19,221 nucleotides of DNA from Actinomycetota bacterium (GTDB lineage: Bacteria; Acidobacteriota; Blastocatellia; Chloracidobacteriales; Chloracidobacteriaceae): assembly GCA_013298335.1 (NCBI GenBank), contig JAAFHI010000006.1:1-19221 (forward strand), read 5' to 3'. Of this stretch, positions 2,708 through 19,221 are shown piece after piece; position 1 is the first letter of the stretch; the number at the start of each line of letters is the position of its first letter. Made by a program: the position numbers and the translations under genes. The notes below the pieces were generated by a model. The model did not search any database. It had not been told where the DNA came from and worked only from the letters and a program-made list of their open reading frames with translations.

Positions 2708-2743
2708 CGGCTATTTCGTCGCTGCCCGTAAGTCCTTTGGAAA

Positions 2744-4759: not shown

Positions 4760-4786
4760 CTGCTTATTTTGATTATAAATAAGCAG
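4760..4786. repeat. Left-end hairpin of the TnpB element
   Basis: CTGCTTATTT at 4760-4769 and AAATAAGCAG at 4777-4786 form a perfect 10-bp stem with a 7-base loop. A further AAAACC (4755-4760) and GGTTTT (4796-4801) pair outside it with spacers. The segment is far richer in A/T than its surroundings. Such subterminal hairpins are what TnpA recognises in IS200/IS605 ends. Confidence 0.65.
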
Positions 4787-4801
4787 AAATGAGTAGGTTT
4801 T
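4784..4801. repeat. Outer inverted repeat of the TnpB element, left end
   Basis: CAGAAATGAGTAGGTTTT is the partner of the repeat at 3414-3430 and overlaps the last three bases of the left-end hairpin. It sits immediately inside the proposed boundary at 4804. Confidence 0.6.
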
Positions 4802-4804
4802 ATT

Positions 4805-5338
4805 CAAACTGTTCAAGCCCTTGAAGAAGTCGAGGCCCGGCGGCTGAAAGGCGCGCGACTGCTGCGCGCGACCGATCTTTCGCAATCCGAAATCGCCCGT
4901 CGGCTGGGCGTCACTCGCGCCGCCGTTTCCGTTTGGGCGCGGCGGCTTGAAAACAACCCGATGGGGAATCTCCGAAAGCGGCGGATCGGCCGTCCGCCGC
5001 AACTGTCAAAACGCCAGTGGACTGCGATTCTGGAAACCCTTGCCCAGCCGGAAAAACCGATCGGATGTGCCGGTGACCGCTGGACCCTCGAAGACATCCG
5101 CCGGTTCATTCACCGGAAATTCGACGTCGAATACAGCATCTGTTTTCTTTCGGTCAAACTGAGGAAACTGGGCTGGGACGTGCATGAACAACGGTTCAGT
5201 CACCCGCTGAACTGTCAAATGAACCGGGATCGGATTCTGACCTGGGAGTTGCTACGGACCTCCGTCCGGAAGCCGGATGGGTTGGGAAATCCCCCCGGTC
5301 GTCGTCCTGTCCTTGAGGGCAGGGCGAACGGAGGCTGA
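4805..5338 (+). pseudogene. IS630-like transposase N-terminal region (helix-turn-helix), interrupted and lacking the DDE domain
   Basis: The frame opens at 4793 with no usable start before 4961, yet conserved sequence begins at 4811. VQALEEVEARRL is followed by a clear helix-turn-helix (LSQSEIARRLGVTRAAVSVW), a GRPPQLSKRQW linker and a second winged-helix segment (WTLEDIRRFIHRKFDVEYS, then KLRKLGWDVHEQR). This is the two-part DNA-binding region of IS630/Tc1-like transposases. Its real start is probably ATG 3381, separated by the TnpB element. The similarity stops near 5215 (FSHPLN). After that the frame reads through unrelated structured DNA to TGA 5336, and no DDE catalytic domain follows in any frame. 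It is therefore broken at both ends. A stand-alone regulator with this fold is a less likely reading. Confidence 0.7.
5255..5326 (+). ncRNA. Orphan TnpB right-end / omega-RNA-like structured segment
   Basis: Three stems lie close together: CGGAC-CTCC-GTCCG (5255-5268), GGG-AAAT-CCC (5284-5293), and a 10-bp stem with two G-U pairs and a TTGA loop at 5303-5326 (CGTCCTGTCC and GGGCAGGGCG). The order of a GGGAAATCCCC element followed by a hairpin of the form GTCCTT-x-AGGGC is typical of the 3' end of many IS605-type elements, where it forms the end of the TnpB guide RNA. No tnpB lies on this strand, and it does not match the right end of the element at 3402, so it would be a remnant of another family. 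It replaces the missing 3' part of the transposase. Confidence 0.4.
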
Positions 5339-5357
5339 ACAGTTACAAAAAAACTGG

Positions 5358-5380
5358 CCGAACTGGTCAAACCAGTTCGG
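5358..5380. repeat. Perfect 10-bp inverted repeat upstream of the PhoD-like gene
   Basis: CCGAACTGGT and ACCAGTTCGG are perfect complements separated by CAA. No T-run follows on the plus strand; a run of seven A lies just before it, so on the minus strand it could work as a weak terminator. It could also be an operator for the gene at 5508. Confidence 0.45.
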
Positions 5381-5507
5381 TTCAGCGTTGCCATTCAAGG
5401 TCGTTTTGGACAAGATTGGCGGCTCGTCTCAACTTCCGGGTAACCACGGTGTTACAAAATCCGCCTGTGCCCCAGCGCGGAGATCTTTTCTTTTCGGCTG
5501 AACCTCA

Positions 5508-6890
5508 TTGAAACGACGTTCCTTTCTCGGACATTTGCTGCTCTCGCCGGTTGCCCTTTCCCTTTCCAGGTTGCGGGCGCGGGGCAAGGAACCGGACGCC
5601 CTCCTTTCCGGCCCGATGCTCGGCTACGCCGAAATGACGGAAACCGTCATCTGGCTCCAGACCCGACGTCCCGTTCGGGTCCAGGTGCGGTACTGGAAAC
5701 AGGGCGACACTGCCCATGCTCATTTGAGCGAGATCGTCAAAACCGGTCCCGAAAGCGACCACATTGCCCGTTTCACCTTGAGCGGACTGGACTTCGGGGC
5801 GCGCTACGATTACGAAATCTTCATCGAGGGTGAGCGGATCGAACGGCCCTACGCGATGACCTTTCAAACCCAGCCGATGTGGAAGTGGCGGACCGAGCCG
5901 CCGAACTTCAAGGTCGCCTTCGGGTCCTGCGCCTATATTCCCGATCCGCCCTTCGACAAGAAGGACGCCCCGGTGAGCGGCAATCCGTGGGTGTTTCCGG
6001 TCATCGCCGACCAGAACCCCGACCTGATGCTCTGGCTCGGCGACAACTGCTATCTGCGGGAAGCCGACTGGCTCACCGAGGCGGGGATGCGCTACCGCTA
6101 CGCGCACACCCGCGCCCATCCGATTCTTCAGCCGCTGTGGGCGAAAACACACCACTATGCCACGTGGGACGACCACGATTTCGGCCCGAACGACAGTGAC
6201 CGTGCGTTTCGTGGGCGGGAATCCACGTTCAAGGTCTTCCGGGATTACTGGCCGAATCCCGCTTACGGCACGGCGGAGACGCCCGGCGTGTTCGGGCGGT
6301 TTCAATGGGGCGACATCGACTTTTTCATGCTCGACGACCGGTACCACCGTTCGCCGAACGCGCTTTCCGAGAAATATCCCGGCAAGACGATGTTCGGCGA
6401 GGGGCAGTTCAAGTGGCTGACGGATTCGCTCCGGGAGAGCGAAGCGCCCTTCAAGATCGTCGCCAACGGAAACCAGATGTTGAATGATTTCAACCAGTAC
6501 GAGGGACTGAACCGGTTTCCCTCCGAACAGGAGCGATTGTTCGATTTCATCCGCGAGGAAGCCATTCCGGGGGTGGTGTTCCTGTCCGGCGACCGGCATT
6601 TCACGGAACTGCTGAAGAAAACCGTGCCGGGGATCTATCCGCTCTACGATTTCACGTCGAGTTCGCTGGCCTCGGGGCTGCCGACGCCGGGACCGAAGGA
6701 AATCGACAATCCGCTCCGCGTGCCGGGCACGCTGGTTTACGGCAGGCACAATTTCGGGACCCTCGAATTTTCAGGTCCGCGCAAGGAGCGGGTGATGACC
6801 CTGCGGTGTTTCGACGCCGACGGAAAGGACCGCTGGCGGCATGACATAAGGGCTTCGGAACTCACCTTCCCCAAGTCTGGGATAAAATGA
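5508..6890 (+). CDS. PhoD-like alkaline phosphatase family protein, exported
   Basis: The 460-residue protein starts at TTG 5508, chosen because the resulting N-terminus MKRRSFLGHLLLSPVALSL is a Tat-type signal (RRSFLG) and no ATG or GTG is better placed. An N-terminal Ig-like domain (about 33-125) precedes a metallophosphatase domain with GSCAY at 139, LWLGDNCY at about 175, WDDHDFGPND at 220 and SGDRHF at 360. These are the PhoD-family metal ligands (Asp, Cys, Asn, His). Family members cleave phosphate mono- or diesters in the periplasm using Ca/Fe. The set is complete, so activity is expected, but the substrate is unknown. Length is usual for the family. The ribosome binding site is weak. 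The next gene begins 140 bases on, and no phosphate-regulation site (Pho box) was recognised. Confidence 0.9.
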   Translation: MKRRSFLGHLLLSPVALSLSRLRARGKEPDALLSGPMLGYAEMTETVIWLQTRRPVRVQVRYWKQGDTAHAHLSEIVKTGPESDHIARFTLSGLDFGARYDYEIFIEGERIERPYAMTFQTQPMWKWRTEPPNFKVAFGSCAYIPDPPFDKKDAPVSGNPWVFPVIADQNPDLMLWLGDNCYLREADWLTEAGMRYRYAHTRAHPILQPLWAKTHHYATWDDHDFGPNDSDRAFRGRESTFKVFRDYWPNPAYGTAETPGVFGRFQWGDIDFFMLDDRYHRSPNALSEKYPGKTMFGEGQFKWLTDSLRESEAPFKIVANGNQMLNDFNQYEGLNRFPSEQERLFDFIREEAIPGVVFLSGDRHFTELLKKTVPGIYPLYDFTSSSLASGLPTPGPKEIDNPLRVPGTLVYGRHNFGTLEFSGPRKERVMTLRCFDADGKDRWRHDIRASELTFPKSGIK

Positions 6891-7030
6891 TAACCCCTGT
6901 TTTTTCAATGAGATCGTGGTGACGGCGGGTGGTTGTGGCGCCGCGGAACCGGTGAATCCAGACTTTCCCGTCCGAGGACGACTCAAACGATGGCTGAACG
7001 GTTCCCATTCCTTTTTCCATCGGACTCCCT

Positions 7031-8692
7031 ATGCGCCTGCGTTTCTGTGTGCCGATCCTTTTTGCCGTGGCGATGCTGACCGGGACCGCGTTCGGTCAGC
7101 GCGTTTCGTTGAATGTGCCTCCGCGCGACACCGACAGCCAGATTTCGACCAATCTCGAAGCCCATTACTGCGAGTTGAATCCGGCGGTCCCGCCAAAAAA
7201 CCGGCTGTTCGTCTTCCTTCCCGGTACTGGCGGCACGCCCGCGGTCTACAAACTGGTCTGCGACGCGGCGGCGGATCAGGGGTTTCATGTCGTCGGGTTG
7301 AACTATCCCAACGACGAGGCGGTGAATGCCCTGTGCGCGGGCGGGACCGACCTCGACTGTTACGGCAACGTCCGGCTGGAAACGCTCGACGGGACGGACC
7401 GCACCTCGCTGGTGGACGTCAACCGGCCCAATTCCATTGAAAACCGCCTTCAAAAAGTCATTGCGTACCTCAACGGACGGTTTCCGAACGGCGGCTGGGG
7501 GCAGTTTCTCGAAGCCGACGGCAGCGTGAAGTGGCCGCTGGTGGTCGTGGCCGGGCATTCGCAGGGCGGCGGGCACGCGGGCATCATCGGGCGGTATCGT
7601 CCGGTGGCGCGGGTCATCATGTACGCCGCGCTCGATTTCAACGCCCGCACCGGACGCCTCGCCAACTGGATCGCCTTTCCGCAAAACACACCGAACGCCA
7701 CGCCGCCCGACCGGTTCTGGGGGTTCATCCACCAGCGGGATGAACTGGTCAACCCGACGCTGACCACGACGCTCGGCTGGCCAGCCTACGGGATGAACGC
7801 CTTCGGCCCGGTGGTGAACGTCGATTCCGCCTTCGTGCCGTTTTCGAACACCCATTCACTGACGAGCAACCTCGATCTGCCGGATGCGAGCGGGAATTTT
7901 CACGGCATGATCGTGGTGGACGTCCGGACGCCGAAGCTGGGCGACGGCACGCCGGTCTATAAACCTGTGTGGGACTATCTTTTAACCGGCAAACCGGCCT
8001 CGACCGTCGGGGCGTTCCGTCCGGCGAAGGGCTTCACCTACCTGCGAAATTCCAACACGCCGGGGTTTGCCGACCGGGAATTCTTTTACGGCACCGCCGG
8101 AGACATCCCGGTGGCGGGCGACTGGGACGGCGACGGGAAGGACAGCATCGGGATTTACCGCAACGGGACGTTTTACCTGCGGAATTCCAACACCGCCGGG
8201 TTCGCCGATCTTCAGTTTCCCTATGGCGCGCCGGGCGACCTTCCGATTGTCGGCGACTGGAACGGCGACGGCGTGGATACGGTGGGGGTGGTCCGCAACG
8301 GACGGTTTCTGCTGCGGAATGCCAACTCGGCGGGACCGGCGGACCTCGACTTTTTCTACGGCACGGCGACCGACCTTCCGATTGCGGGCGACTGGGACGG
8401 CAACGGGACCGACACCGTCGGAGCGTTTCGTCCGTCGAACGGGTTCGTCTATCTGCGGTATTCCAACACCGAGGGCTTTGCCGATGTGGAATTTTTCTAC
8501 GGGCAGGCGGGCGACCGTCCGGTGGTGGGCGACTGGAACGGCGACGAGGTGGACACCATCGGGATTTATCGCGCCGACGCCGTGGCGGCGACCTTCTTCA
8601 TCCGGAATTCGAATTCGAGCGGCTTCGCCGATACGAGTTTTTCCTACGGCACGCCCGGCGATCTGCCCGTCACGGGGTTCTGGGGAAGCTGA
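7031..8692 (+). CDS. Secreted alpha/beta hydrolase with five C-terminal FG-GAP-like repeats
   Basis: The 553-residue protein has a signal peptide (MRLRFCVPILFAVAMLTGTAFG). Residues about 25-320 form an alpha/beta hydrolase with an FLPGTGG oxyanion region and the nucleophile elbow AGHSQGG, serine at 177; it resembles BPSS1187-type hydrolases. From about residue 325 come five repeats of roughly 45 residues, each with YLRNSNT-x-GFAD, FFYG, GD-x-PVAGDWDGDG and DTIGIYR-like segments. The DWDGDG/DWNGDG motifs are Ca-binding-type loops as in FG-GAP/VCBS propellers, and the fifth copy ends in GFWGS without one. Such C-terminal repeats are common on surface proteins and may bind calcium or polysaccharide. 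An esterase or polymer-degrading role is likely but the substrate is unknown. The 140-base gap before it shows no clear terminator. Confidence 0.82.
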   Translation: MRLRFCVPILFAVAMLTGTAFGQRVSLNVPPRDTDSQISTNLEAHYCELNPAVPPKNRLFVFLPGTGGTPAVYKLVCDAAADQGFHVVGLNYPNDEAVNALCAGGTDLDCYGNVRLETLDGTDRTSLVDVNRPNSIENRLQKVIAYLNGRFPNGGWGQFLEADGSVKWPLVVVAGHSQGGGHAGIIGRYRPVARVIMYAALDFNARTGRLANWIAFPQNTPNATPPDRFWGFIHQRDELVNPTLTTTLGWPAYGMNAFGPVVNVDSAFVPFSNTHSLTSNLDLPDASGNFHGMIVVDVRTPKLGDGTPVYKPVWDYLLTGKPASTVGAFRPAKGFTYLRNSNTPGFADREFFYGTAGDIPVAGDWDGDGKDSIGIYRNGTFYLRNSNTAGFADLQFPYGAPGDLPIVGDWNGDGVDTVGVVRNGRFLLRNANSAGPADLDFFYGTATDLPIAGDWDGNGTDTVGAFRPSNGFVYLRYSNTEGFADVEFFYGQAGDRPVVGDWNGDEVDTIGIYRADAVAATFFIRNSNSSGFADTSFSYGTPGDLPVTGFWGS

Positions 8693-9152
8693 GGCCAGAG
8701 CGCCACAAAAAGGTGCGGAGCGTGGTTTGGGAAGCCGCCGACGGGAGGACGGGGCGACGTTGGGATTCGCTTTTCGACGCGCACTGTTAGTGCTCCCAAC
8801 ACTTCATCTTTCGCGGAAACCACTGGTATATAAGGACTAACGAAGGGAATCGTCCCTCCGCAGGCTGCACGAGGCGCGATTAGGAACACTCTCGGGCGAG
8901 AACAATTCGGCGTGACGGCTGAACTCGTCGGGCTTCGGCCACGACGACCGCCCGTGCCTTTCGGTACATTGAGTTCAGTACCATCTCCACGATTTTTCCG
9001 GTTCTATTGGAACAACTCTCCCCGGCGAAGGTCCGACTTTTCGGACTGCCGGGGACTTTTCCGTGTCCGAAAAAAACGGTTTTCCGGCATTCGTGAGGGA
9101 TTTTTCGCATGGAATCCGACTTTTAAAGATAGAAAGCGGTTTCAGAGGAACC
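8693..9152. other. Non-coding region upstream of the sigma factor operon
   Basis: I see no gene in these 460 bases on either strand. The region has a short stem at 8844-8857 (AGGGA-ATCG-TCCCT), an A/T-rich TATATAA at 8827-8833 that could be part of a promoter, and the strong hairpin at 9019-9055. It must hold the promoter of the sigma factor gene unless that is read through from the hydrolase. Confidence 0.45.
9019..9055. promoter_or_regulatory. Strong two-part hairpin in the leader of the sigma factor gene
   Basis: TCCCCGGC (9019-9026) pairs with GCCGGGGA (9048-9055), and inside it GTCCGA (9031-9036) pairs with TCGGAC (9041-9046) around a CTTT loop. It is followed by CTTTTCC, a weak T-run. 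It may be a terminator for upstream transcription or an attenuator; it ends 97 bases before the sigma factor ATG. Confidence 0.5.
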
Positions 9153-9731
9153 ATGAAAGAGACACCCGGCGAAATCACGAACCTGCTGCTGGCCTGGAAC
9201 AACGGCGACGAAAGCGCCCTGAACCGGCTGATTCCACTGGTTTACGACGAACTGCGCAAGATCGCGCGCCAGTTCGCGAACCGCCAGTGTACGCAACTCA
9301 AGAACGCGTTCCAGCCGACGGTCATCGTCCACGAAGCCTATACCCGGCTGGTGGACGAGGAGCGGGTCGAGTGGCGCAACCGGGCGCATTTTTACGGTAT
9401 CGCCGGGCGGACCATCCGCCGGATCATCGTGGATGAATACCGCAAGATGAAGGCAAACAAGCGCGGCGGCGACTGGGAGCAGGTTTCGCTGGGCGAAGTG
9501 GACGGGGCGGCCCTGCCGCGGGTGGATCTGCTCGCGCTGAACGCGGCGCTGGAAATGCTCGAAACGTGGGACGAGCGCAAGTTCCGGATTACCGAATTGC
9601 GGTTTTTCAGCGGTCTGACCAACCGGGAAATCGCCGAGGTGATCGGGGCGTCCGAGAAAACGGTCGAACGCGAGTGGAGGAGCGCCAAGGCGTGGTTGTA
9701 TCGCGAACTGACACGGGGAGCGGCATTGTGA
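9153..9731 (+). CDS. Sigma-70 family ECF-like sigma factor (TIGR02999 type)
   Basis: The 192-residue protein begins at ATG 9153, preceded by GAGG with good spacing; the frame is open further up but that part is not conserved in character. Region 2 is visible as FQPTVIVHEAYTRLVD, then RAHFYGIAGRTIRRIIVDEYRKMKA; region 4 as ITELRFFSGLTNREIAEVIG with the DNA-contact helix SEKTVEREWRSAKAWL. The spacing and sequence match the TIGR02999 (Sig-70_X6) group common in Acidobacteriota and Planctomycetota. It directs RNA polymerase to a dedicated promoter set. No anti-sigma factor is encoded next to it. Instead its stop overlaps the start of a Ser/Thr kinase, which suggests control by phosphorylation, as shown for EcfP and PknT in Vibrio. 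Targets are unknown; the downstream secreted genes are plausible. Confidence 0.92.
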   Translation: MKETPGEITNLLLAWNNGDESALNRLIPLVYDELRKIARQFANRQCTQLKNAFQPTVIVHEAYTRLVDEERVEWRNRAHFYGIAGRTIRRIIVDEYRKMKANKRGGDWEQVSLGEVDGAALPRVDLLALNAALEMLETWDERKFRITELRFFSGLTNREIAEVIGASEKTVEREWRSAKAWLYRELTRGAAL

Positions 9732-11581
9732 GCGAACTCGATCGGCGGGCCATGCGGATATTCGAGGATGCGCTGGACCTTGCGCCCGACGCGCAGGCCG
9801 GATTTATCGCGGACGCCTGCGGCGGGGACGCCGCGCTGCGCGAGGAAGTCGAACTGCTGCTCGCGAGCGACCGTCAGGCGCACCAGCTTTCGGAAGCCGT
9901 CCGGGCCGAGATCGCCGACGTCGCCGGGGCCGTCATGGTCGCGCCGTCGGGGCAGAGCCTCGCGATGGTCGGGGTGAAACTGAACGGGCGCTACGTCATC
10001 GAAAAACGGATCGGCGCGGGCGGCGTGGGGGTCGTGTTTCTGGCCCGCGACGAACACCTGCACCAGCGTCAGGTCGTGGTCAAGGTGCTCAAGGAGAGCC
10101 GGGACCCGTGGTTGCTGCGGAAGTTCACGCAGGAAAGCGAGGCGCTGACCCGGCTCGATCATCCGAACGTGGTCAAGGTGCTCGATCGCGGGATGGTCGA
10201 GGACGGGCGCCCCTTCCTGGTGATGGAGTTCGTGAAGGGCGAGACGCTTGAGGATTTTCTCAAGCTGGGCGCTGGACGGCTCGACATCGCGACCGTCATC
10301 TTGTTGATTCACCAGATTTTCCGGGCAGTCGAGACCGTTCACGGGGGCGGCATCATCCACCGCGATCTGAAAACCAGCAACATCATGGTGCGGTTTCAGG
10401 CGGACGGCACGCTTCAGGCCAAGCTGATTGATTTCGGCATCGCCAAGATTTTCGAAACGACCGCCGGCAATCAGACCACGACGCCGCTCACGGTCGGCAC
10501 GCTGCCCTACATGGCGGCGGAACTCTTCGACGGGCAGGAAGCCTCGGTCGCGAGCGACGTCTACGCGCTGGGCATCATCGCGTTTGAACTGCTGACCGGG
10601 GCGAGGCCGTTCGTCGCGAAGGGCCGGAGCCTGCTCGCCCAGATTCTCGAATACCGGAACCTTCAGGAAACCGGGGCGGGCGGACAGTTGCGGTCGCTCC
10701 GCCCGGAACTTCCCGAGCAGTTGGAGTCGGTGCTGCTGACCGCGCTCGCGTTTCATCCTGAAGCGCGGTATCAGCGCGTCCTGAGTTTTGAAACGGCGCT
10801 CATCGCGGCGCTGGAGGGCATCGACGCCGCCGGGATTCCCGAAACTGAAACCCTCACGCTCGGCGGCTCCGAATCGAAGGTCGAGGCCGCGTCGGCGGTG
10901 GTCCCGTCGGGCACCACCGCTCGCCGGGCCACCGGTGACCTGCCCAAAACAGCGCCTGTCAAAATGAACTGGCCCGTGACCGGCCTCATCGGAATTCTGA
11001 TCGGGACCGGCATCGCGCTCACCATTGTCGGGGTCCCGCCGCGCTGGGGCTTCCCGAAGCCGGGGTCGGTCCCGACTCCCGCGCCCGCGCCGGTGTCCGT
11101 GCCCGTTTCGGCAAAGAACGCACCGGCCCTGCCGTTCACTTTGGAAGATGCTCCAACAGTGGCGACCGCCGGGCAGGAAATCCGCCTCCGGGCGACGCTC
11201 AACCGGGGCGGGTACTTTTATGTCTTCAGCGAGTCGCCGTCGCTGCGGACCGACGCGCTCCCGAACTACACGGTGCTGTTTCCGGGTTCGTCCGACAACG
11301 GCGGGTCGTCGCGCTTCGACGTCCGGAATCTCGTGATTCCGCCGGTCGAGTCCGGCCCCGGATTCGTTTTCGAGGGAAAACAGGGGACCGAGAAACTCTG
11401 GGTCGTCTGGTCGGCGGAAAGCGTGCCGGTGCTGGAAACGGTCCGGATTCGAGCCAATCCGAAGGATCAGGGCGTGGTGACCGAACGGGAGCAGGTGCTC
11501 GCGCTCGGCGAATTCCTGAAAAAACACGTTGAACCCGATGAAAACGTGACCGTCCGGTGCGTGAAAATCGAACACCGCTAA
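9728..11581 (+). CDS. Membrane Ser/Thr protein kinase with C-terminal DUF4384-like domain
   Basis: The 617-residue protein starts at GTG 9728, overlapping the sigma factor stop by four bases. Residues 1-60 carry the N-terminal segment typical of these kinases (RIFEDALDLAPDAQAGFI, then LREEVELLLASD). The Hanks-type kinase domain spans about 85-360: glycine loop GAGGVGVVF, K119 in VVVKVLK, HRDLKTSN with D213, and DFG at D235, so it should be active. One membrane helix follows at about 414-438 after a Thr/Ala linker. The remaining roughly 150 residues outside the membrane read LRATLNRGGYFYVFS and are DUF4384-like, similar to the next gene's product. I infer that this outer domain senses an envelope signal and the kinase acts on the sigma factor or other proteins inside. 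It is coupled in translation with the sigma factor. Confidence 0.93.
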   Translation: MSELDRRAMRIFEDALDLAPDAQAGFIADACGGDAALREEVELLLASDRQAHQLSEAVRAEIADVAGAVMVAPSGQSLAMVGVKLNGRYVIEKRIGAGGVGVVFLARDEHLHQRQVVVKVLKESRDPWLLRKFTQESEALTRLDHPNVVKVLDRGMVEDGRPFLVMEFVKGETLEDFLKLGAGRLDIATVILLIHQIFRAVETVHGGGIIHRDLKTSNIMVRFQADGTLQAKLIDFGIAKIFETTAGNQTTTPLTVGTLPYMAAELFDGQEASVASDVYALGIIAFELLTGARPFVAKGRSLLAQILEYRNLQETGAGGQLRSLRPELPEQLESVLLTALAFHPEARYQRVLSFETALIAALEGIDAAGIPETETLTLGGSESKVEAASAVVPSGTTARRATGDLPKTAPVKMNWPVTGLIGILIGTGIALTIVGVPPRWGFPKPGSVPTPAPAPVSVPVSAKNAPALPFTLEDAPTVATAGQEIRLRATLNRGGYFYVFSESPSLRTDALPNYTVLFPGSSDNGGSSRFDVRNLVIPPVESGPGFVFEGKQGTEKLWVVWSAESVPVLETVRIRANPKDQGVVTEREQVLALGEFLKKHVEPDENVTVRCVKIEHR

Positions 11582-11594
11582 GTGGAGAACGCCT

Positions 11595-12497
11595 GTGAAA
11601 CCGACCCCTGTCTTCAATCGCGCGCTGTGTCTGTCCGTGGTTTGTCTGGTCGCCTTCGGCTGGGGGCTGCGGGCGGCGCAGGACGACACCACCCGCGACA
11701 TCAAGCGGAAGTACCGCGAGTTTGCCGCCCAGCGCGCGAAGCCGACCCGTCCGAAGGCCGCGACGGTGTCCGCGCGGAAAAAATCGCCATCGCCCGAAAC
11801 ATCATCCGAACCGTCGCCCGACGCGGCCCCGGTGACGCTCGCCAACGCGGTGGGCGTGACCGCCTGGCGGCTGCGACCGGCGGAAACCCGCAAACTTTCG
11901 CATTCTGAAAACACCCTGATTGCGGGCTGGACCGCCGAGCGGCTGTCGTCGAACACCAGACTGCTGCCGGGAGATCGCGTCCGGTTCACGGTTGAAGTGC
12001 CGCGCGAAGGCTATCTGTATGTGGTGAGCCGCGAACAGTTCGCCGACGGCAGTTTCGGCGAGCCGAGCCTGATTTTCCCGACGACGCGCATCCGCAACGG
12101 GAGCAACCGGGTAAGTCCGGGGCTGCTGGTCGGCATTCCGGCGCTCGAAGACAACCCGCCCTTCTTCACGCTCGAACGGAGCCGTCCCGATCAGGTCGCC
12201 GAATCGGTCAGCATTCTGGTGACGCCGGAGCCGATTTCGACGCTCGCCATCGGGCGCGAGCCGGTGACGCTCACGCGCGAGCAGTTCGCCGAGTGGCGGC
12301 GGCTGGAAACGAACGTCGAGAAAATCGAACTCGCGCAAACCGACACGAAGGGCTACACCGCGGTCGAGCACGCGGCGGAACGCGGCCTCAAAACGCGCAG
12401 GCTGACGCAGGGCGACCCCCTTCCGCAGACGCTCTACCGCTTGAACTCGGCCAATGACCGGCTGTTCGTGACCTTTCCGATTCCGATTTCAAAGTGA
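11595..12497 (+). CDS. Secreted DUF4384 protein
   Basis: The 300-residue protein starts at GTG 11595, with GGAG seven bases before it and 13 bases after the kinase stop, so it is in the same operon. It has a signal peptide (LCLSVVCLVAFGWGLRAAQ), a charged low-complexity linker to about residue 75, and a DUF4384 beta-sandwich: LLPGDRVRFTVEVPREGYL, YVVSREQFADGSFGEP, SLIFPTTRIRNGSNRV. DUF4384 commonly occurs with caspase-like or kinase domains. The same fold ends the preceding kinase, so the two may contact each other outside the membrane, or the secreted copy may compete for the same ligand. The function of the domain is not known. A palindromic repeat, not a clear terminator, follows. Confidence 0.82.
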   Translation: MKPTPVFNRALCLSVVCLVAFGWGLRAAQDDTTRDIKRKYREFAAQRAKPTRPKAATVSARKKSPSPETSSEPSPDAAPVTLANAVGVTAWRLRPAETRKLSHSENTLIAGWTAERLSSNTRLLPGDRVRFTVEVPREGYLYVVSREQFADGSFGEPSLIFPTTRIRNGSNRVSPGLLVGIPALEDNPPFFTLERSRPDQVAESVSILVTPEPISTLAIGREPVTLTREQFAEWRRLETNVEKIELAQTDTKGYTAVEHAAERGLKTRRLTQGDPLPQTLYRLNSANDRLFVTFPIPISK

Positions 12498-12532
12498 ATC
12501 CGGGAGCGTTGCCCGTTTCAAAGGAGCGAAAG

Positions 12533-12580
12533 TGTTTTGCGGCTGTGCCGCGTTTGTACTACTCCCGTGTGGGCTGATTT
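12533..12580. repeat. Short hairpin repeat, unsplit copy of the element at 17869
   Basis: TGTTTTGCGGC, then TGT, then GCCGCG with a tail ending CTGATTT. GCGGC and GCCGC form a hairpin (12539-12551) and CCC-GTGT-GGG a second small one. The copy at 17869-18073 has the same flanks with 160 bases placed in the hairpin loop. Confidence 0.6.
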
Positions 12581-12600
12581 CGGTATCTCCAGGTCCCGTG

Positions 12601-12891
12601 ATGGTTTTTGAAAATTTGAACCGGGAATAGCGCTGGTTTCGGGTTTGAAGAGGCGCGGATGCGCCGCCAGATAATAGCCGCGCCCGTTAGGGCGTGGTGG
12701 CGTTCGGTAAACCAGACCCGGAGCGCCAACGGCGCGGCACAGAAAACGGACGTGCCGCCGCTGACGCGGCTCACGAATGTTTTCCGCCAATCCACCCCGG
12801 CCTGACGGCCGGGGCTATTATCTGGCGGCGCATCCGCGCCTCTTCAAACCCGAAACCAGCACTATTCCCGATTGAATTTTTCAAAAACCAT
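12601..12891. repeat. Large palindromic REP-like element with 79-bp arms
   Basis: Bases 12601-12679 and 12813-12891 are inverted copies matching at 75 of 79 positions. The 133 bases between them contain further small hairpins: CGCCC-GTTA-GGGCG, GCGCC-AAC-GGCGC and, at 12795-12814, CCCCGGCC-TGAC-GGCCGGGG. No protein is supported. It occupies most of the 522-base gap between the secreted DUF4384 gene and the TPR-CHAT gene, and so may limit read-through or stabilise the upstream mRNA. The remaining bases to 13019 show no gene. Confidence 0.85.
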
Positions 12892-13019
12892 AACGGACTA
12901 AATAGTTGAAGAAAAAAGCGTTGCGTCTCGTTCACGAGGCTTGTTGCCGCGCTGTCCGTTCGGGCCGGGCAGGCGGCTGAACGGTGACCGTCCGGACTCC
13001 GAACCGTAAGGTGAATGGA

Positions 13020-16000
13020 ATGAACTTCGTAAAAACGCTCGGGTTGTCGTCGGCGCTGGGGCTCTCGGTCTTCCTCTGGCTGAATGGCGGACACTTTTCG
13101 CCGGTCGTGGCGCGGGCGCAGTCCCAGGTTGAAACCCGGCTCGAAGCCGGGAAGACGATCACCCGTGACCTGAAGGGCGGGGAGGTCGCGTCCTATCCGG
13201 TACGACTTGAACCCGGCGGCATGCTCGACGCGGTGGCGGTTCAAAAGGGAATCGACGTGACGCTGCGGCTGATCGGGCCGGATGGAAAACCGCTCGTCGA
13301 GGCCGTCAGTCGCCGGGGCGCGGAGGACGAGACCGCCCGGATCGGTTTCATTTCCAATGCCGACGCCGACTATCGTCTGGAGGTCGTGGCGTTCGAGAAA
13401 GACGCCAGGCCGGGGAAATTCGATCTTTCGCTGCTTGAACTTCGGCAAGCCTCGGAAAATGACCGGCTTCGAATCAAGGCGAGGGGGCTGTTCGGGCAGG
13501 CAGTCGCGCAGGCCGAGGCGCGGAAGTTCGACGCGGCGCTGCCGAAAGCCGAGGAATCCGTTCTCCTGTTCGAACGGGTGCTCGGCTCCGATCACCTTGA
13601 AACCGCTTCCGCCGTCAACGTGCTTGCCCAGATTCTTCAGGCGAAGCAGGAGTACGCGAAAGCCGAGCCGCTGTTTCTGCGGGCGCTGGCGATTCGCGAA
13701 AAACAGCTCGGCGCGGACCATCGCGACGTGGCCTGGAGCCGGAACAATCTGGGGCTGTTCTACAAAACCAGAGGCGATTTCGGAAAAGCCGACCCGTACT
13801 ACCAGCAGGCCATCGCCATGCTCGAACGCCAGCCCGGCGCGGATCGCCTCAATCTGGCCGAATTTCTCAACAATCTGGCCGTCCTCAACCGCGTCCGGGG
13901 CGATTACGCGAAGGCCGAGCCGCTGTATCTCCGGTCGCTCGCCATCCGGGAAAGTGAACTGCCCGCCGACCACCTCGATATCGCCCTGAGCCTCAACAAT
14001 CTGGCGCTGCTCTACAACTACCGGGGCGATTACGCGAAGGCCGAGCCGCTCTTTCTGCGTTCGCAGGCGATTTATGAAAAGCGGTACGGCAAGGATCATC
14101 CCGACGTGGCGGCGGCGCTGAACAATCTCGCGCTGCTCTACAAGTCGATGGGGAACTATCCGCAGGCCGAGCCGCTGTACCTCCGGGCGCTGGCCATCAA
14201 GGAAAAACAGTGGGGGCCGGATCACCCCGACGTGGCGCTCAGTCTGAACAACCTTGCCACGCTCTATCAGGCGACCGAGGCGTATGACAAAGCCGAGCCG
14301 CTCCTCCGGCGCGCGCTGGCGATTCGGGAAAAGAGCCTCGGCCCGGAGCATCCGCTGGTCGGAACCAGCCTCATCAATCTGGCTTTGGTCTATCTCCTCA
14401 AAGGCGATCTGGAGAAAGCCGAGCCATTGTTCGCCCGAGGGGTGGCGGTTTTCGAGAAGCAGGCCCCTGATCATCCCCAGTTGGCGATCGGGTTGAACAA
14501 CTGGGGCGGGAAATACCTGATGGCGGGAGATTTCCGGAAAGCCGAAGCCCTGATGCTCCGGTCGTTCGACATGCGCGAGCGGGTGCTCAACGCGGACCAT
14601 CCCGACGTGGCGAACAGTCTGGTCAATCTGGCGCGGCTCTACCGGGTCATGGGGAATCCGTCGAAAGCCGTGACTTACGCCACCCGCGCCAATGCCGTCA
14701 TGGAGCGCGATTTTCTGCGCAATCTCGTCGCCGGTTCGGAGCAGCAAAAGGTTTTGTATCTGAAGCGGACCGCCACCTACGCCGACACGACCATCTCGCT
14801 GCACGTCGGCTCGGCGCCGAACGACCCGGAAGCCGCGAAAGCGGCGCTCTCGGTGATTCTGCAACGCAAGGGCCGGGCGCTCGACATCATGTCGCGCAAC
14901 ATCGAGGCGCTGCGGGCGCGGGCCACGCCCGAAGACCGGGCGCTGCTCGACGAACTGGCCGTCACCCAGACGAAACTGGCCAACCTGCTGGTGCGGGTTC
15001 CCGAGGGAAAAGCGGCGCAGGGCTACAAGGATCAGGTCACGGCGCTTGAAACCCAGGTGGACAAACTTCAGGCCGACATCGGGGCGCGCAGCGCGAGTTT
15101 CCGGCTGCAAAGCCTGCCGGTGACACTCGATGCGGTCCAGCGGGCCGTCCCGGAAGACGCCGCGCTGGTCGAGTTCGCCTTTTTCCGGCCCTACGACGCG
15201 GCGATGAACACCTATGGCGCGCCGCGCTTCGTGGCCTACGTCCTGAATCACACCGGCGATCCGAAGTGGGTCGATCTCGGCGAGGCCGGGCCCATCCAGT
15301 CGGCCATCGAACGGCTGCGGCAGTCGTTCACCATCGCCGACGCCGAGGCGAAGCGCGACCTCCGGCCACTGGCGCGGGCGGTCGATCAACTGGTCATGGA
15401 ACCGGTTCGGCGACTGCTCGGCGACCGCAAGCGGCTGCTGATTTCACCGGACGGCGTCCTCAACCTGGTGCCGTTCGCGGCGCTCGTGGATGAAAACAAC
15501 CAGTATCTCGTCGAACGCTATTCGATGAGCTACCTGAGCAGCGGACGCGACCTGCTCCGCCTTCAGGAGAAAACCGGCCAGCCGTCGCCGCCGCTCGTGT
15601 TCGCCGACCCCGATTTCGGCGCGGCGTCAGGGCCGTCGCTGGGGCTGCTCGCCGGAATCACCATTTCGCGGTTGCCGGTCACCGCCGTCGAGGCCGCCGC
15701 CATCCGCCGGATTTTCCCCGACGCGAAAGTCCGCCAGCGGGCCGAGGCGACGGAAACCGCGCTCAAGGCGGTTCACGGTCCCCGGATTCTCCACGTCGCG
15801 ACCCACGGCTTTTTTTTCAAGGCGGAAACCGAGGCGCCCGAGCCGGAAGCGATGGCCGGCGCGAACCGCAAGCTCACCCACGGTCCGGAAAGCGCCGGTC
15901 CGACCTGGACGCAACTCAACCAGCCGCTCGTCCAGTCGGGACTGGTCATGGCGGGCGTCAATCTCCGCCGCGCCGAAACCGGTGACGACGGGGTGTTCAC

Positions 16001-16352
16001 CGCGATGGAAGCCGCCGGGCTCGACCTGTTCGGGACGGAACTGGTGACGCTGTCGGCGTGCGATTCCGGGGTCGGCGAAATCCGGACCGGCGACGGCGTC
16101 TACGGGTTGCGCCGCGCGCTGGTGCTGGCCGGTTCCGAAACCCAGATGATCAGCCTCTGGCCGGTGTCCGATCGCGGCACCGGCGAACTCATGGCGAAGT
16201 ACTACACGCTCCTCAAAGCAGGCGAAGGGCGCGGTGAGGCACTCCGCAACGTCCAACTCGCCATGCTCAAGGACCCCAGGCGCCGCCATCCCTACTACTG
16301 GGCCAGTTTCATCCAGTCCGGCGAATGGGCGAACATGGCGGGAAAACGGTGA
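13020..16352 (+). CDS. Secreted TPR-repeat CHAT-domain protein (caspase-like peptidase)
   Basis: I place the start at ATG 13020, after AAGGTG, giving 1110 residues; an in-frame GTG at 12984 adds 12 residues before what looks like a signal peptide (MNFVKTLGLSSALGLSVFLW). Residues about 38-145 form a beta-sandwich of the PPC kind (ITRDLKGGEVASYPVRLEPG). Ten TPRs of about 42 residues follow at 150-570, with the repeated core LNNLALLY, GDYAKAEPL, ALAIREK, DHPD. A helical link leads to a CHAT domain at about 790-1105, with HVATHGFF (H929) and LSACDSGVGE (C1014) as the catalytic pair. It ends with SLWPVSDRGT and HPYYWASFIQSGEW, typical of the family. CHAT is a caspase-fold peptidase. Here it is exported, so it acts outside the cytoplasm. 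It follows the sigma/kinase/DUF4384 genes across a 522-base gap and may have its own promoter. Confidence 0.94.
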   Translation: MNFVKTLGLSSALGLSVFLWLNGGHFSPVVARAQSQVETRLEAGKTITRDLKGGEVASYPVRLEPGGMLDAVAVQKGIDVTLRLIGPDGKPLVEAVSRRGAEDETARIGFISNADADYRLEVVAFEKDARPGKFDLSLLELRQASENDRLRIKARGLFGQAVAQAEARKFDAALPKAEESVLLFERVLGSDHLETASAVNVLAQILQAKQEYAKAEPLFLRALAIREKQLGADHRDVAWSRNNLGLFYKTRGDFGKADPYYQQAIAMLERQPGADRLNLAEFLNNLAVLNRVRGDYAKAEPLYLRSLAIRESELPADHLDIALSLNNLALLYNYRGDYAKAEPLFLRSQAIYEKRYGKDHPDVAAALNNLALLYKSMGNYPQAEPLYLRALAIKEKQWGPDHPDVALSLNNLATLYQATEAYDKAEPLLRRALAIREKSLGPEHPLVGTSLINLALVYLLKGDLEKAEPLFARGVAVFEKQAPDHPQLAIGLNNWGGKYLMAGDFRKAEALMLRSFDMRERVLNADHPDVANSLVNLARLYRVMGNPSKAVTYATRANAVMERDFLRNLVAGSEQQKVLYLKRTATYADTTISLHVGSAPNDPEAAKAALSVILQRKGRALDIMSRNIEALRARATPEDRALLDELAVTQTKLANLLVRVPEGKAAQGYKDQVTALETQVDKLQADIGARSASFRLQSLPVTLDAVQRAVPEDAALVEFAFFRPYDAAMNTYGAPRFVAYVLNHTGDPKWVDLGEAGPIQSAIERLRQSFTIADAEAKRDLRPLARAVDQLVMEPVRRLLGDRKRLLISPDGVLNLVPFAALVDENNQYLVERYSMSYLSSGRDLLRLQEKTGQPSPPLVFADPDFGAASGPSLGLLAGITISRLPVTAVEAAAIRRIFPDAKVRQRAEATETALKAVHGPRILHVATHGFFFKAETEAPEPEAMAGANRKLTHGPESAGPTWTQLNQPLVQSGLVMAGVNLRRAETGDDGVFTAMEAAGLDLFGTELVTLSACDSGVGEIRTGDGVYGLRRALVLAGSETQMISLWPVSDRGTGELMAKYYTLLKAGEGRGEALRNVQLAMLKDPRRRHPYYWASFIQSGEWANMAGKR

Positions 16353-16363
16353 GGGCGGGGAAA

Positions 16364-16427
16364 GGATGAAGGATGAAGGCGGAAGGATGAAAAAGAAAAG
16401 GATGAGGGATGAAGGATGAGGGATGAA
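16364..16427 (+). repeat. Degenerate GGATGAA heptamers after the CHAT gene
   Basis: Seven copies of GGATGAA or GGATGAG begin at 16364, 16371, 16385, 16400, 16407, 16414 and 16421. They lie inverted relative to the TTCATCC run at 16489, so transcripts through both could form a long stem between the two convergent genes. Confidence 0.85.
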
Positions 16428-16488
16428 AAAAACCGGCTGAAATTTGAAGAAAAGACTTGACGGGAAAAACCGAAAACCGACCATTTCC

Positions 16489-16579
16489 TTCATCCTTCAT
16501 CCTTCATCCTTCATCCTTCATCCTTCATCCTTCATCCTTCATCCTTCATCCTTCATCCTTCATCCTTCATCCTTCATCC
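16489..16579 (-). repeat. Thirteen perfect tandem heptamers (TTCATCC / GGATGAA)
   Basis: The 91 bases are exactly 13 units of 7 bases with no variation. On the minus strand the unit is GGATGAA, and the glycosyltransferase runs into it and stops there (its last residues are RMKDEG). Perfect identity suggests recent expansion by slippage, like the heptamer arrays of cyanobacteria. Confidence 0.97.
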
Positions 16580-17777
16580 GCCCGGCGACTGTTTCTTCGA
16601 TGATTTCGGATGCACGGCCCACCCCGCCGAACGGGTTCAGGGATTCACCGAACGCCTTTGCCTGTTTTCGAAACGCACCATTTGAGAGGACGTGGGTCAT
16701 GGCCTGGGCGAGCCGGTCGGCGGTACAGGACCGGAACGGCAGGGGTGGCGGTCCGAGGCCCAGTTCCGAGACGCGAAGGCCGTGGTAATGCTGGTCGCCC
16801 AGATGCGGGACGATGATCTGCGGGACGCCGGCAATCGCCGCCGAAGCCAGCGTGCCGACTCCGCCGTGATGGATGACCAGGGACAGGCGTGGGAAAAGCG
16901 TGGCGTGCGGCGCGTCCCCGACGATGAAGCACCCGTCCGGCGGTTCGACTTCGCCCAATCCCGACCAACCGGTGCTGATGAGCAGCCGTTGCCCCGCCTT
17001 TCGGGCCGCCCCGGTCAGCAGGTTCAGGACCAGGCGGGGATTCCGGTGTTTCATGCTCCCGAATCCGGCATACACCGGGGGCGGACCGGCCTCCAGAAAC
17101 GCAGTCAATTCCGGTGTCAGTTCCCGCCGGTCCGGAAGCCGCCAGAGGCCCGTGAGGTGATGACGGCCCGCATCGCCCGGAATCGGAAGCAGCCTCGGCT
17201 CAACCGCCAGCAGCAACGTTCCGGAGTGGGCAAGGTATTCGTAAATACTTGAAGGCGCTGGACATCCGAGCTTTCGACGCTCCCGAATCAAAGGCCCGCC
17301 CAGTACCGGAATCATTGCATCCTGAAGCCACCACAGGCTTCGGTGCATCCACGGCGGGAAGCTCCGAACCGGGAAACTGAGCGGGGGCAGTTCGGTCGAG
17401 CGCAAATAAACGGGACTGAACACGCCGTAGAAATACGGGATGCGGAGCGTTTCCGCCACCGACGGTGCGGCCAGGTGGAGCATCGCGCCGACCACCGCGT
17501 CGGCACCGGCGCAGGCTTCGAGAAGCGAGGAAAACTGCTCGGGAACATGCTGAAAGACTTTCCGGAGCGTTCTGAACTCGTTCTGGGTACCGTCGAAGAA
17601 GTTCCCGAAGTCCGGTCCGGCACGGTGAAAAGGAAAGCCGAGTGCCCGTATCCGGTCGCCAAAATTGTCCGGGGCAGAGAAAACGACCTGGTGGTTGCGG
17701 TGACGCAGGGTTTCCCCAAGCGCCAGCATGGGCTCGACGTCACCCCGGCTTCCGAATGTCGCCAGTACGATTTTCAA
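16560..17777 (-). CDS. Family 1 (UGT/MGT-type) glycosyltransferase
   Basis: The 405-residue protein begins MKIVLATFGSRGDVEPMLAL, the GT-B N-terminal motif of the sterol and antibiotic glucosyltransferases, read from TTG at 17777. No earlier ATG gives a better start and the ribosome binding site is weak. The C-terminal donor site is clear: HHGGVGTLASAAIAGVPQI followed by VPHLGDQHYHG, binding a UDP-sugar. Length is normal. Such enzymes move a sugar to a small hydrophobic acceptor (lipid, sterol-like or polyketide), on the cytoplasmic side. The acceptor is not predictable. The gene is alone and convergent with the CHAT gene. Its final six codons come from the heptamer array, which looks to have replaced or extended the original end. 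Confidence 0.9.
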   Translation of the reverse strand: MKIVLATFGSRGDVEPMLALGETLRHRNHQVVFSAPDNFGDRIRALGFPFHRAGPDFGNFFDGTQNEFRTLRKVFQHVPEQFSSLLEACAGADAVVGAMLHLAAPSVAETLRIPYFYGVFSPVYLRSTELPPLSFPVRSFPPWMHRSLWWLQDAMIPVLGGPLIRERRKLGCPAPSSIYEYLAHSGTLLLAVEPRLLPIPGDAGRHHLTGLWRLPDRRELTPELTAFLEAGPPPVYAGFGSMKHRNPRLVLNLLTGAARKAGQRLLISTGWSGLGEVEPPDGCFIVGDAPHATLFPRLSLVIHHGGVGTLASAAIAGVPQIIVPHLGDQHYHGLRVSELGLGPPPLPFRSCTADRLAQAMTHVLSNGAFRKQAKAFGESLNPFGGVGRASEIIEETVAGRMKDEG

Positions 17778-17868
17778 GGTGCGTGCCCCGCAAGGAAGAT
17801 TGAAGTTCCGGAAAGCGGATCATTCTAAATCAGTCCACACGAGATTGAGACACTTCAAAGGATGGAAA

Positions 17869-18073
17869 TGTTTTGCGGCTTGCCGCCCGATGTGCGGAAT
17901 GGCTTTGCCTTTCCGCCACGCGTCCCCCTTCAATCTCGCGAGGGGCTGCGCCCCGAGCGGATATATCGGGCTGAAGCCCTCAATTCTTTGGGGTGACCGA
18001 TGCGGAAAGGCAGAGCCATTCCGCACATCAGGCGGCACAGCCGCGCTTGTACCAATCCCACAGGGTCTGATTT
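17869..18073. repeat. Nested palindromic REP-like element
   Basis: The outer flanks (17869-17879 and 18040-18073) match the short repeat at 12533-12580; where that copy has a TGT loop, this one has 160 bases. The inserted part is itself an inverted repeat: 17875-17916 pairs with 18002-18044, with two mismatches and one extra base. Its interior holds hairpins such as GGGGC-TGC-GCCCC and GGGCT-GA-AGCCC. Together with the terminator at 18111 it fills most of the 537-base gap between divergent genes; no protein is supported there. Confidence 0.75.
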
Positions 18074-18110
18074 AGCCGGTACAGCCGGAAAAAAACGACC
18101 AGCCGGTTTC

Positions 18111-18144
18111 CCGCCTTCGGTATGCCCGATGGGCGGTTTTTTTT
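18111..18144 (+). terminator. Rho-independent terminator, plus strand, without an obvious upstream gene
   Basis: CCGCC and GGCGG (18111-18115, 18132-18136) with an inner TCGG/CCGA stem and a TATGC loop, followed by eight T. The nearest upstream gene on this strand is the CHAT gene, 1.8 kb away, with the opposite-strand glycosyltransferase between. Confidence 0.75.
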
Positions 18145-18288
18145 GTCTCCGGAATTTTTTTTGAGGGAATGCGTCACCGAAATCCGACTTACTGAGTAGA
18201 CGGTTTTTCGAACAGTCGGTCGTCCTGAACGCTGCCATCCAGAGGGGCCTTTGCGGTGGTGGTCACCTTGCCGTTTTTCGAGAATCCG

Positions 18289-18308
18289 TCACCTCCTTTT
18301 TCAGGTGA
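18289..18308 (+). promoter_or_regulatory. Hairpin masking the ribosome binding site, with a 16S-tail-like arm
   Basis: TCACCT (18289-18294) pairs perfectly with AGGTGA (18303-18308), and AGGTG is the ribosome binding site of the gene starting at 18315. The left arm with its next bases, TCACCTCCTTTT, is nearly the sequence at the 3' end of 16S rRNA. This would hold the site closed until something opens the stem. Confidence 0.5.
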
Positions 18309-18314
18309 CCCGCC

Positions 18315-19221
18315 ATGTCGTTCCGTCCACGTATCCTTCTCATTCTCTTTGTTTTGTCGGCGCTTCTTGTTTCGGTGGGGCTGCCCTGGCTGGTTGCACC
18401 GAAAACCGTGTCGGCAAAAATCGGCGCGCCGACGGCGAGCGCGTCAGAGATGTGGGGAACGATCAGTCCCGAAAATGCGCTGGGGCGCCTGATGCCGGGC
18501 GAGGCCCGACCGGTCGGCGCGAGTGGCCGGGTTTCGGCGGGGCGACCGGGGCAAATCACCAACGGCGTGGTCTTCGCGGGCGACGTGCCGCAACTGATCG
18601 CGGCGTTGCGCGACGTGAACGTAGACACGATTTACCTCAATCCGGGCGGGACCTACACGCTGACCGCGCCCGACAACGGCGTTGACGGCATCAACGGGCT
18701 TCCCGACATCAACCACGGCGTGACCATCTACGGACGCAACGCCACCATCCGGCGCGATCCCTCCGCGCCGGCCTTTCGCTTTTTCCACGTTTCGGGGCCG
18801 AATAATCCCGGGATTCCGGTCAATCCCTCCAACGCAGGCGCGCTTTTTTTGAATGATCTGACGCTGACCGGCGGCATTGCGCGCGGCGGAAAGGGCGGCG
18901 ACTCGCAGAATCCCGGCGGCGGCGGGGCGGGAATGGGCGGGGCCATTTTCAACAATGGCGGAGTGGTCATTCTGACCCACTGCAAACTGATCGGGAACCG
19001 GGCTGAGGGCGGGGCCGCCGGGGTTGGGACAGACCCCTACGGCTATGGCGGCGGCGGCGGTCTGGGCGGCAATGGCGGAAGCGGAAATCGGCTTTTTTCG
19101 GCTCAGGGTTTTACCGTGACCTCGGGCGGCGGCGGCGGAAGCGGCGGCAATGGCGGAAACGGATTTTTGGGCAGCGGTGGCGGTGGCGGCGCGGGACTAT
19201 TCGCCTGTGGCGCGAGCGGCA
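18315..19221 (+). CDS. Secreted Gly-rich beta-helix surface protein (partial, 3' end off window)
   Basis: The first 302 residues are visible. A signal peptide (RILLILFVLSALLVSVGLPW) is followed by a segment typical of right-handed beta-helix surface proteins: VPQLIAALRDVNVDTIYLN, PGGTYTLT and VTIYGRNATI, then FLNDLTLTGGIARGG and GGAIFNNGGVVILTHCKLIG. From about residue 195 the sequence is dominated by Gly runs (GGGGGSGGNGGNG), like polymorphic outer-membrane and other repeat-rich proteins. The start at ATG 18315 is supported by AGGTG upstream. Such proteins are exported and often serve in adhesion or form fibres; the C-terminal anchor is not seen. It is divergent from the glycosyltransferase, and its translation may be controlled by the hairpin just before it. 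Confidence 0.8.
   Translation, partial: MSFRPRILLILFVLSALLVSVGLPWLVAPKTVSAKIGAPTASASEMWGTISPENALGRLMPGEARPVGASGRVSAGRPGQITNGVVFAGDVPQLIAALRDVNVDTIYLNPGGTYTLTAPDNGVDGINGLPDINHGVTIYGRNATIRRDPSAPAFRFFHVSGPNNPGIPVNPSNAGALFLNDLTLTGGIARGGKGGDSQNPGGGGAGMGGAIFNNGGVVILTHCKLIGNRAEGGAAGVGTDPYGYGGGGGLGGNGGSGNRLFSAQGFTVTSGGGGGSGGNGGNGFLGSGGGGGAGLFACGASG

Follow-up and report, generated by a model that had tools for sequence, protein, structure and literature searches.

The window analysed here is a 19,221-nucleotide stretch of DNA from an Actinomycetota bacterium (GTDB lineage Bacteria; Acidobacteriota; Blastocatellia; Chloracidobacteriales; Chloracidobacteriaceae; assembly GCA_013298335.1, contig JAAFHI010000006.1, positions 1 to 19,221 of the forward strand), and its subject is a group of four genes on the + strand, the first three of them tightly packed, that had been proposed from sequence to form one signalling system. 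The first encodes an extracytoplasmic function (ECF)-type sigma factor (9153..9731, ATG to TGA, 192 amino acids) matching TIGR02999 (192.8 bits, cut-off 126.15) and PF07638 (164 bits). The second, for a Hanks-type Ser/Thr kinase (9728..11581, 617 amino acids), starts with a GTG at 9728 that shares four bases (GTGA) with the sigma stop; its product consists of a kinase domain (PF00069, 152 bits), a single hydrophobic span near residue 417, predicted to cross the membrane, and a DUF4384-like tail made up of the final 150 residues (11129..11578) and predicted to lie outside. Thirteen bases separate the kinase stop from the GTG start of the third gene, for an exported DUF4384 protein, here called D43 (11595..12497, 300 amino acids), whose N-terminal signal peptide was recognised by inspection. 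The fourth (13020..16352, ATG start, 1110 amino acids) encodes a TPR-CHAT caspase-like protein (PF12770, 278 bits) with the catalytic His and Cys at H929 and C1014 and an N-terminal export signal, likewise recognised by inspection. Both catalytic residues are present in all 55 CHAT proteins linked to loci of this kind and in all 18 unlinked ones (>600 amino acids). The gene overlap, the 13-base spacing and the exported CHAT protein with its two catalytic residues thus stand as originally described.

The kinase tail and D43 of the window score below the Pfam cut-off of 27 bits with PF14326 (kinase 19.3, excised tail 23.9, D43 21.8). Their relatives fit this model better: at E≤1e-3 it is matched by 26 of 30 homologues of the secreted protein and by 17 of 32 kinase tails, and a D43 profile aligns with a tail profile by hhalign at E 2e-17. 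Through these relatives the window proteins can be read as DUF4384-like, and with them the predicted kinase with an outside DUF4384-like tail. A sequence search with D43 returned no relative in the PDB.

Under a simple heuristic rule for export, 78 of 88 D43 proteins, 44 of 55 CHAT proteins and 18 of 19 Peptidase_C14 (C14) proteins scored positive, as did 1 of 69 sigma factors and 3 of 58 ordinary kinases. All 53 DUF4384 kinases keep the HRD and DFG motifs. Given these export signals and the topology of the kinase, the tail, D43 and the protease are predicted to share the same outside compartment.

To ask how often these genes occur together, we collected D43 loci from other genomes (locus and genome handles, prefixed L and G, are given where needed). 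Relatives of D43 were found in 30 of 58 genomes, the window's own included, and 60 loci were taken from this search, chosen mainly by rank. A second set, from named genomes, comprised 50 loci, 22 already known and 28 new, and 25 of the new ones hold a DUF4384 kinase or a CHAT gene. The combined sets contain 93 distinct D43 genes, 60 of which are flanked on each side by 5 kb or more. Within 9.5 kb of these 60 we found a DUF4384-tail kinase in 45 cases, CHAT in 34, C14 in 12, CHAT or C14 in 45, and a sigma gene in 24; at least one of DUF4384 kinase and caspase-fold gene lies near 56, and kinase, CHAT and sigma together accompany D43 in 15. The family profiles behind these counts were built from D43 loci and miss divergent tails: by score, L088-L092 and L234 have kinases without DUF4384, while a tail is visible by eye in L088-L092 and the tail profile did find G002 (L088) and G025 (L234). 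L088-L092 were counted as having kinase partners in the trees and in the sigma and layout counts, where they passed the filters, and not in the 9.5-kb partner counts.

The association is equally apparent from the other members. D43 lies within 10 kb of 37 of the 53 listed kinase-length tail proteins (21 genomes), where 0.64 would be expected, and two further tail kinases have a D43 gene slightly past 10 kb. A check of 20 tail proteins, 14 without any near D43 and 6 with one, found a kinase domain in 19; across all 53 the domain is confirmed in 48, absent from L225 (which also has no D43) and unchecked in the remaining 4, which makes the count 37 of 52. For the 33 D43 genes in 12 genomes with a CHAT count, CHAT lies within 9.5 kb of 20 (2.45 expected from CHAT densities) and within 300 bp of 11 (0.45 expected).

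As controls we examined 40 TIGR02999 sigma loci and 20 CHAT loci from G014, G015, G017, G021, G023, G025 and G055, excluding known D43 loci with the exception of contig C34 of G023 (L118), which overlaps L048. The sigma loci (L095-L134) contained a DUF4384 kinase once, CHAT twice, D43 once and C14 once, so that 3 of 40 had any of these; 35 of 40 hold an ordinary Ser/Thr kinase with no detected DUF4384 tail, mostly adjoining the sigma gene. A DUF4384 kinase together with D43 was found in 2 of the 20 CHAT loci. When the known D43 places are put back, 4 of 44 listed sigma genes in the seven genomes have a DUF4384 kinase, and of 31 listed CHAT genes 9 are in such loci, 19 outside and 3 unexamined. 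The controls therefore make the association a property of the DUF4384-kinase subclass rather than of sigma-kinase pairs or CHAT proteins generally. Such neighbours are missing from ordinary sigma-kinase pairs and from most other CHAT genes. A caution attached to the original prediction, that a CHAT gene rarely beside the other three would speak against it, would thus be upheld in part when CHAT genes at large are the starting point.

The same data bear on the possibility that no functional link exists, and that CHAT, kinase and TIGR02999 genes adjoin simply because they are abundant. Abundant they are, with 65 CHAT matches in G001, 60 in G003 and between 6 and 36 TIGR02999 matches (E≤0.001) per genome in 12 D43-bearing genomes, and in G001 the number of CHAT genes near D43 is what chance would give. 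For the module as a class, this explanation is contradicted by the observed and expected counts and by the controls, and we regard it as highly improbable; the window's own CHAT gene, taken alone, may lie where it does by chance. Together, these data identify a conserved acidobacterial module whose grouping is not accidental. The proposal that the four genes form one system holds in that kinase, D43 and CHAT or another caspase-fold protein co-occur far above chance, and falls short in that all parts are found together near only 15 of 60 D43 genes.

Neither the order of the genes nor the presence of every one of them is fixed. Among 57 kinase-D43 loci we counted 25 layouts, the commonest being sigma-kinase-CHAT-D43 (10 loci) and kinase-D43 alone (9 loci), so the idea of a kept gene order does not survive, and order was dropped as a criterion of membership. 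A sigma gene is present in 24 of the 57, with one more slightly past the stretch examined; L048 is tallied without one, and the adjoining stretch L118 shows one. The sigma factor is thus an optional addition, present in somewhat under half of the loci and mostly with CHAT: among 48 loci with enough upstream DNA, 26 have CHAT, and 16 of these have a sigma gene, as do 4 of the 22 that lack CHAT (Fisher p 0.003). Loci with C14 and no CHAT have a sigma gene in 2 of 10 cases, which weakens a purely transcriptional model, and 12 of the 48 have no caspase-fold gene nearby. In L053, L057 and L061, sigma and CHAT lie on one strand and kinase and D43 on the opposite one; the sigma-CHAT pair can also act as a unit.

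CHAT itself proved to be one of several caspase-fold proteins in the module: many loci have it, as predicted, and C14 types fill the slot too. The substitutes include WD40-C14 (L202), TPR-C14 (L043, L044) and C14 with no repeat match (L044, L035), and L068 has a C14 protein with an FGE-sulfatase domain alongside a CHAT; most other C14 genes were called by profiles made from such examples, not by Pfam. The locus closest to the window, in the D43 branch as in the tail branch, is L035, which reads sigma-kinase-D43, M48 peptidase, C14 caspase on one strand. A second locus in the window's own genome (L054) has two C14-profile genes, of which the one scanned is rich in WD40 repeats, and L231 and L232, from the window's family, have a C14-profile gene, a kinase and then D43. 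In a third genus of the family, five of seven genomes have D43-sigma-kinase-CHAT in a row (L088-L092). A single CHAT lineage dedicated to the module was considered and partly rejected: linked CHAT proteins, that of the window included, are spread over several lineages, and linked and unlinked ones cluster on a tree of 73 CHATs with 7 changes, as against 16.4 when shuffled.

The protease is exchanged; D43 and the kinase tail have stayed together. In 56 loci they form two old clades that separate by a single split and branch in a matching way. Distance matrices correlate at r 0.80 for D43 and tail and at 0.36 for D43 and kinase domain. The tail and its kinase domain reach 0.51, less than D43 and tail although they belong to one protein. 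The partial correlation of D43 and tail is 0.77 for all loci, 0.47 within type A and 0.78 within type B, values reached in 0 of 500 permutations each. Recent duplication or gene conversion as the source of the matching trees was rejected, since the tree shows a single D/T change and none of the 56 own pairs comes out as sisters. This pattern suggests that D43 and the tail are lasting partners, most simply through contact outside the membrane.

How the protease relates to this pair can be read in two directions. The original prediction has the protease as the product of the circuit. The other reading is that the caspase-like protein is the input: once triggered in the envelope, it would cut D43 or the tail, and the kinase would report the cut, in the manner of DegS/RseA or Csx29/Csx30, where cleavage sets a sigma factor free. 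There is a precedent in the type III-E CASP system, where a TPR-CHAT protein beside an ECF sigma factor is described as acting upstream of it in the text of the source available to us (PMC10028731). Such a reading would accord with the exported CHAT protein and D43 sharing the compartment of the kinase tail, and with a protease that changes between CHAT and C14 while D43 and tail are kept, as expected if D43 were the common substrate; moreover, C14 loci without a sigma gene appear to offer no transcriptional route within the locus from kinase to protease. Against it, cleavage is putative and a quarter of the kinase-D43 loci with enough upstream DNA (the 12 of 48 above) have no caspase-fold gene nearby to do the cutting, and we consider it rather unlikely.

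In some loci the gene immediately before CHAT is small and diverges rapidly (95-479 amino acids), and the products share the pattern [DSTN]Wx[AS] near the C-terminus (L051, L165, L167, L169, L171, L172 with two, L173, L174, L176, L182 and L184). Of the 55 linked CHAT genes 16 are preceded by a match to the pattern, as are 4 of the 18 unlinked ones, and 12 of these matches were retained by eye, two of the four discarded linked ones being sigma genes; among opposite-strand open reading frames (ORFs) at the same place, 4 of 114 match. Seven of the small proteins were scanned against Pfam, and none scored above a cut-off. They are candidate substrates or partners of CHAT. In L063, L064, L065, L074 and L078 the same slot is taken by a DUF11 family ending in VPVFPPxC.

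Interchangeable effectors, and a small gene before CHAT that diverges fast, would be typical of conflict loci, and the available text of a survey of bacterial conflict systems describes recurrent use of caspase-fold proteins, including EACC2 caspases with an ECF sigma factor (PMC8195603). The module might on this basis be a weapon or cell-death system, in which the exported CHAT or C14 protein attacks neighbours or the cell's own envelope, D43 serves as carrier or immunity protein, and kinase and sigma factor only regulate. A PADLOC scan of the four window proteins gave kinase-domain and TPR matches only, and D43 is the conserved element of the module, not the variable one. A weapon or cell-death system is, in our judgement, improbable.

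We turn now to the sigma factor, which bears a motif of its own. Where canonical ECF sigma factors have an acidic DAED box, that of the window reads FQPTVIVHEAY, and the sigma factors studied here show the variants QPTV, QPTA, QSTA and QTTA. This uncharged motif with its Thr is what a kinase-activated ECF factor would be expected to carry. Among 21 linked sigma factors the Thr is found in 19; in the remaining two an acidic residue adjoins it. A Hanks kinase adjoining the sigma gene, the absence of DAED and a Thr at the phosphosite are the marks of ECF43-like factors, a likeness that consists of motif and kinase neighbour, since the sigma models matched were TIGR02999 and PF07638 only. In ECF43 itself, the available text of two studies gives a QTTA consensus (STTA in EcfP) and phosphorylation of the second Thr by the partner kinase (PMC13147305, PMC8999054). 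Kinase-activated sigma factors, according to the parts available of one of them, have so far been tested in a few Proteobacteria, and some groups from other phyla are proposed to work in this way (PMC8999054).

These observations lead us to lean slightly towards the following arrangement. Three proteins would make up the core of the acidobacterial module: a Hanks kinase that spans the membrane once and bears its DUF4384 tail outside, the exported DUF4384 protein D43, and an exported TPR-CHAT or C14 protein. D43 and the kinase tail, to judge by their matched evolution, would pair outside the membrane, and the caspase-like protein would work with this pair in the envelope. A change in the envelope complex would alter kinase activity; where a sigma factor is present, the kinase would then phosphorylate the QPT-motif Thr in region 2.2 of that factor, placing negative charge where DAED would otherwise be, and the charged sigma factor would bind RNA polymerase. 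Two further parts of the original prediction are conjectural: the sigma factor would drive expression of CHAT, and DUF4384 would be the sensor of a signal in the envelope. A more general form of this arrangement, which we hold tentatively and as somewhat short of probable, is an extracytoplasmic caspase circuit in which swappable exported proteases (TPR-CHAT, WD40-C14, TPR-C14 and other C14 types) would be read through the DUF4384 pair and the kinase and, in many loci, through a Thr switch on the sigma factor.

A number of observations weigh against the favoured arrangement. Firstly, its members are also found apart: for 12 of the 93 D43 genes the surrounding 9.5 kb show no kinase tail and no caspase partner (some of these contigs are cut), and 13 confirmed tail kinases have no D43 on the stretch examined, with CHAT beside one, C14 beside one, sigma beside one and none beside ten, three of these ten being at contig ends or on short contigs. 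Secondly, the association is thin in the window's own family: CHAT lies near 1 of 6 D43 genes in G001 (0.91 expected, chance level) and near 1 of 3 in G003 (0.43 expected, a weak excess), and G006 and G009, from the genus of L088-L092, have no D43 match. Thirdly, within type A alone the tail and kinase domain correlate at 0.45, close to the D43-tail partial correlation of 0.47, so the stronger claim of matched evolution rests on the whole set, and co-inheritance of neighbours may lie partly behind the matching trees. Fourthly, 28 of 57 kinases have no sigma gene in reach despite at least 1.5 kb of upstream DNA, and 5 more are cut, so that sigma activation cannot be the sole output. Fifthly, the motif Thr is as common in control sigma factors (35 of 40) and hence not specific to the module; much of the TIGR02999 group here is likely to use the same Thr switch. 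Moreover, in EcfK of Xanthomonas citri a T51A mutant, altered at the equivalent position, still works and a linker Thr matters too, as the available text of that study reports (PMC13147305), so the QPT Thr need not be the only switch.

Finally among these points, a promoter motif shared by the CHAT and sigma genes, a check suggested with the original prediction, was looked for and none emerged. When 120 upstream regions were scanned for spaced word pairs, no pair was commoner than in five shuffles per set. Across L088-L092 the upstream alignment has conserved blocks, one of which reads by inspection as a housekeeping promoter of a divergent gene, and no link of these blocks to the sigma factor was shown; in L174, L176 and L182 (Bryobacterales/Acidobacteria), the aligned sigma and CHAT upstream regions read largely as coding. 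The regions compared are far diverged, and their lack of a common motif does not imply that none exists.

In the window, the gap between D43 and CHAT holds a palindromic repeat (12596..12896) that did not figure in the original prediction, with two 105-nt arms that are 90% complementary and an RNA fold z of -21. One of its ends matches Acido-Lenti-1 (RF01687) at 12795-12841, the sole Rfam match in the window. In the window's own genome the repeat recurs dozens of times, complete or in part (88 alignments when both orientations are counted); one copy, on contig C624, is about 235 bases away from a D43 gene. Since L082, L083, L137 and L142 have kinase-D43-CHAT with CHAT directly after D43, the repeat is best read as an insertion and not as part of the module. 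The Acido-Lenti-1 'RNA' may accordingly be the end of a mobile repeat resembling a miniature inverted-repeat transposable element, and not an RNA gene. An IS605 OrfB/TnpB-like gene (PF01385, PF07282, PF12323) lies elsewhere in the window, at 3438-4721 on the - strand.

Comparison with described systems placed the module beside several of them without equating it with any. The ECF43 pairs EcfP/PknT of Vibrio parahaemolyticus and EcfK/PknS of X. citri likewise have a sigma factor beside a Ser/Thr kinase and a Thr in place of DAED; they control polymyxin resistance or the type VI secretion system, unlike here, and the available text of both papers makes no mention of a DUF4384 tail, an exported DUF4384 partner or a caspase-fold protein (PMC8999054, PMC13147305). 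The type III-E CRISPR CASP system (Csx29 TPR-CHAT, Csx30, CASP-sigma) also links TPR-CHAT to an ECF sigma factor, but as far as its source is available it is RNA-triggered and CRISPR-bound and frees its sigma factor from a cleaved inhibitor, whereas the module has a CHAT protein with an export signal and a kinase (PMC10028731); a Pfam scan of the ten ORFs of the window found no Cas7-11. EACC2/caspase systems (Kaur et al. 2021) share the neighbourhood of caspase domain and ECF sigma factor and have variable partners that include kinases and extracellular sensors; they differ in pairing the EACC2-caspase with a DUF1822-type TPR protein, and the accessible text names neither an exported caspase nor DUF4384 (PMC8195603). 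Around ECF54 genes there are likewise CHAT and subtilase genes, but proteolytic regulation is proposed and no kinase is named in the part available (PMC8999054). DUF4384 has been noted in caspase-like proteins and as often co-occurring with N-terminal kinase domains, in what are one-protein fusions, and the passages available do not mention a separate exported partner (PMC6426788, PMC7475262, PMC8283722). In agreement with the original statement that no system with these four parts is described, a search of the open-access literature returned no description of this gene set.

With at most five candidates scored per genome, at least 28 of the 396 genomes searched in the phylum gave a match at E≤1e-10, and matches above 130 bits are all in the window's class except for G081. 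In a protein database, 835 of 8000 scored proteins were relatives at E≤1e-10. The 50 named records are all metagenome-assembled genomes, titled Blastocatellia, Pyrinomonadaceae, Chloracidobacterium, Bryobacterales, Terriglobia, Acidobacteria/Acidobacteriota and the like, with one Acidimicrobiia; this last (L178, VFZE01000065.1) has a kinase-D43 locus, attributable to transfer or misbinning.

To our knowledge, no described kinase-sigma pair has an exported caspase-like part, and we know of no assigned role for DUF4384 and no pathway for bacterial exported CHAT or caspase-like proteins. If the arrangement we favour is true, it would place DUF4384 and exported caspase-like proteins in one circuit, and it would show transmembrane kinase signalling coupled to caspase-fold proteases. 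Kinase-activated sigma factors would, in addition, be extended to a phylum where a sigma gene very commonly has a kinase as neighbour, an ordinary kinase accompanying 35 of the 40 TIGR02999 loci sampled here.

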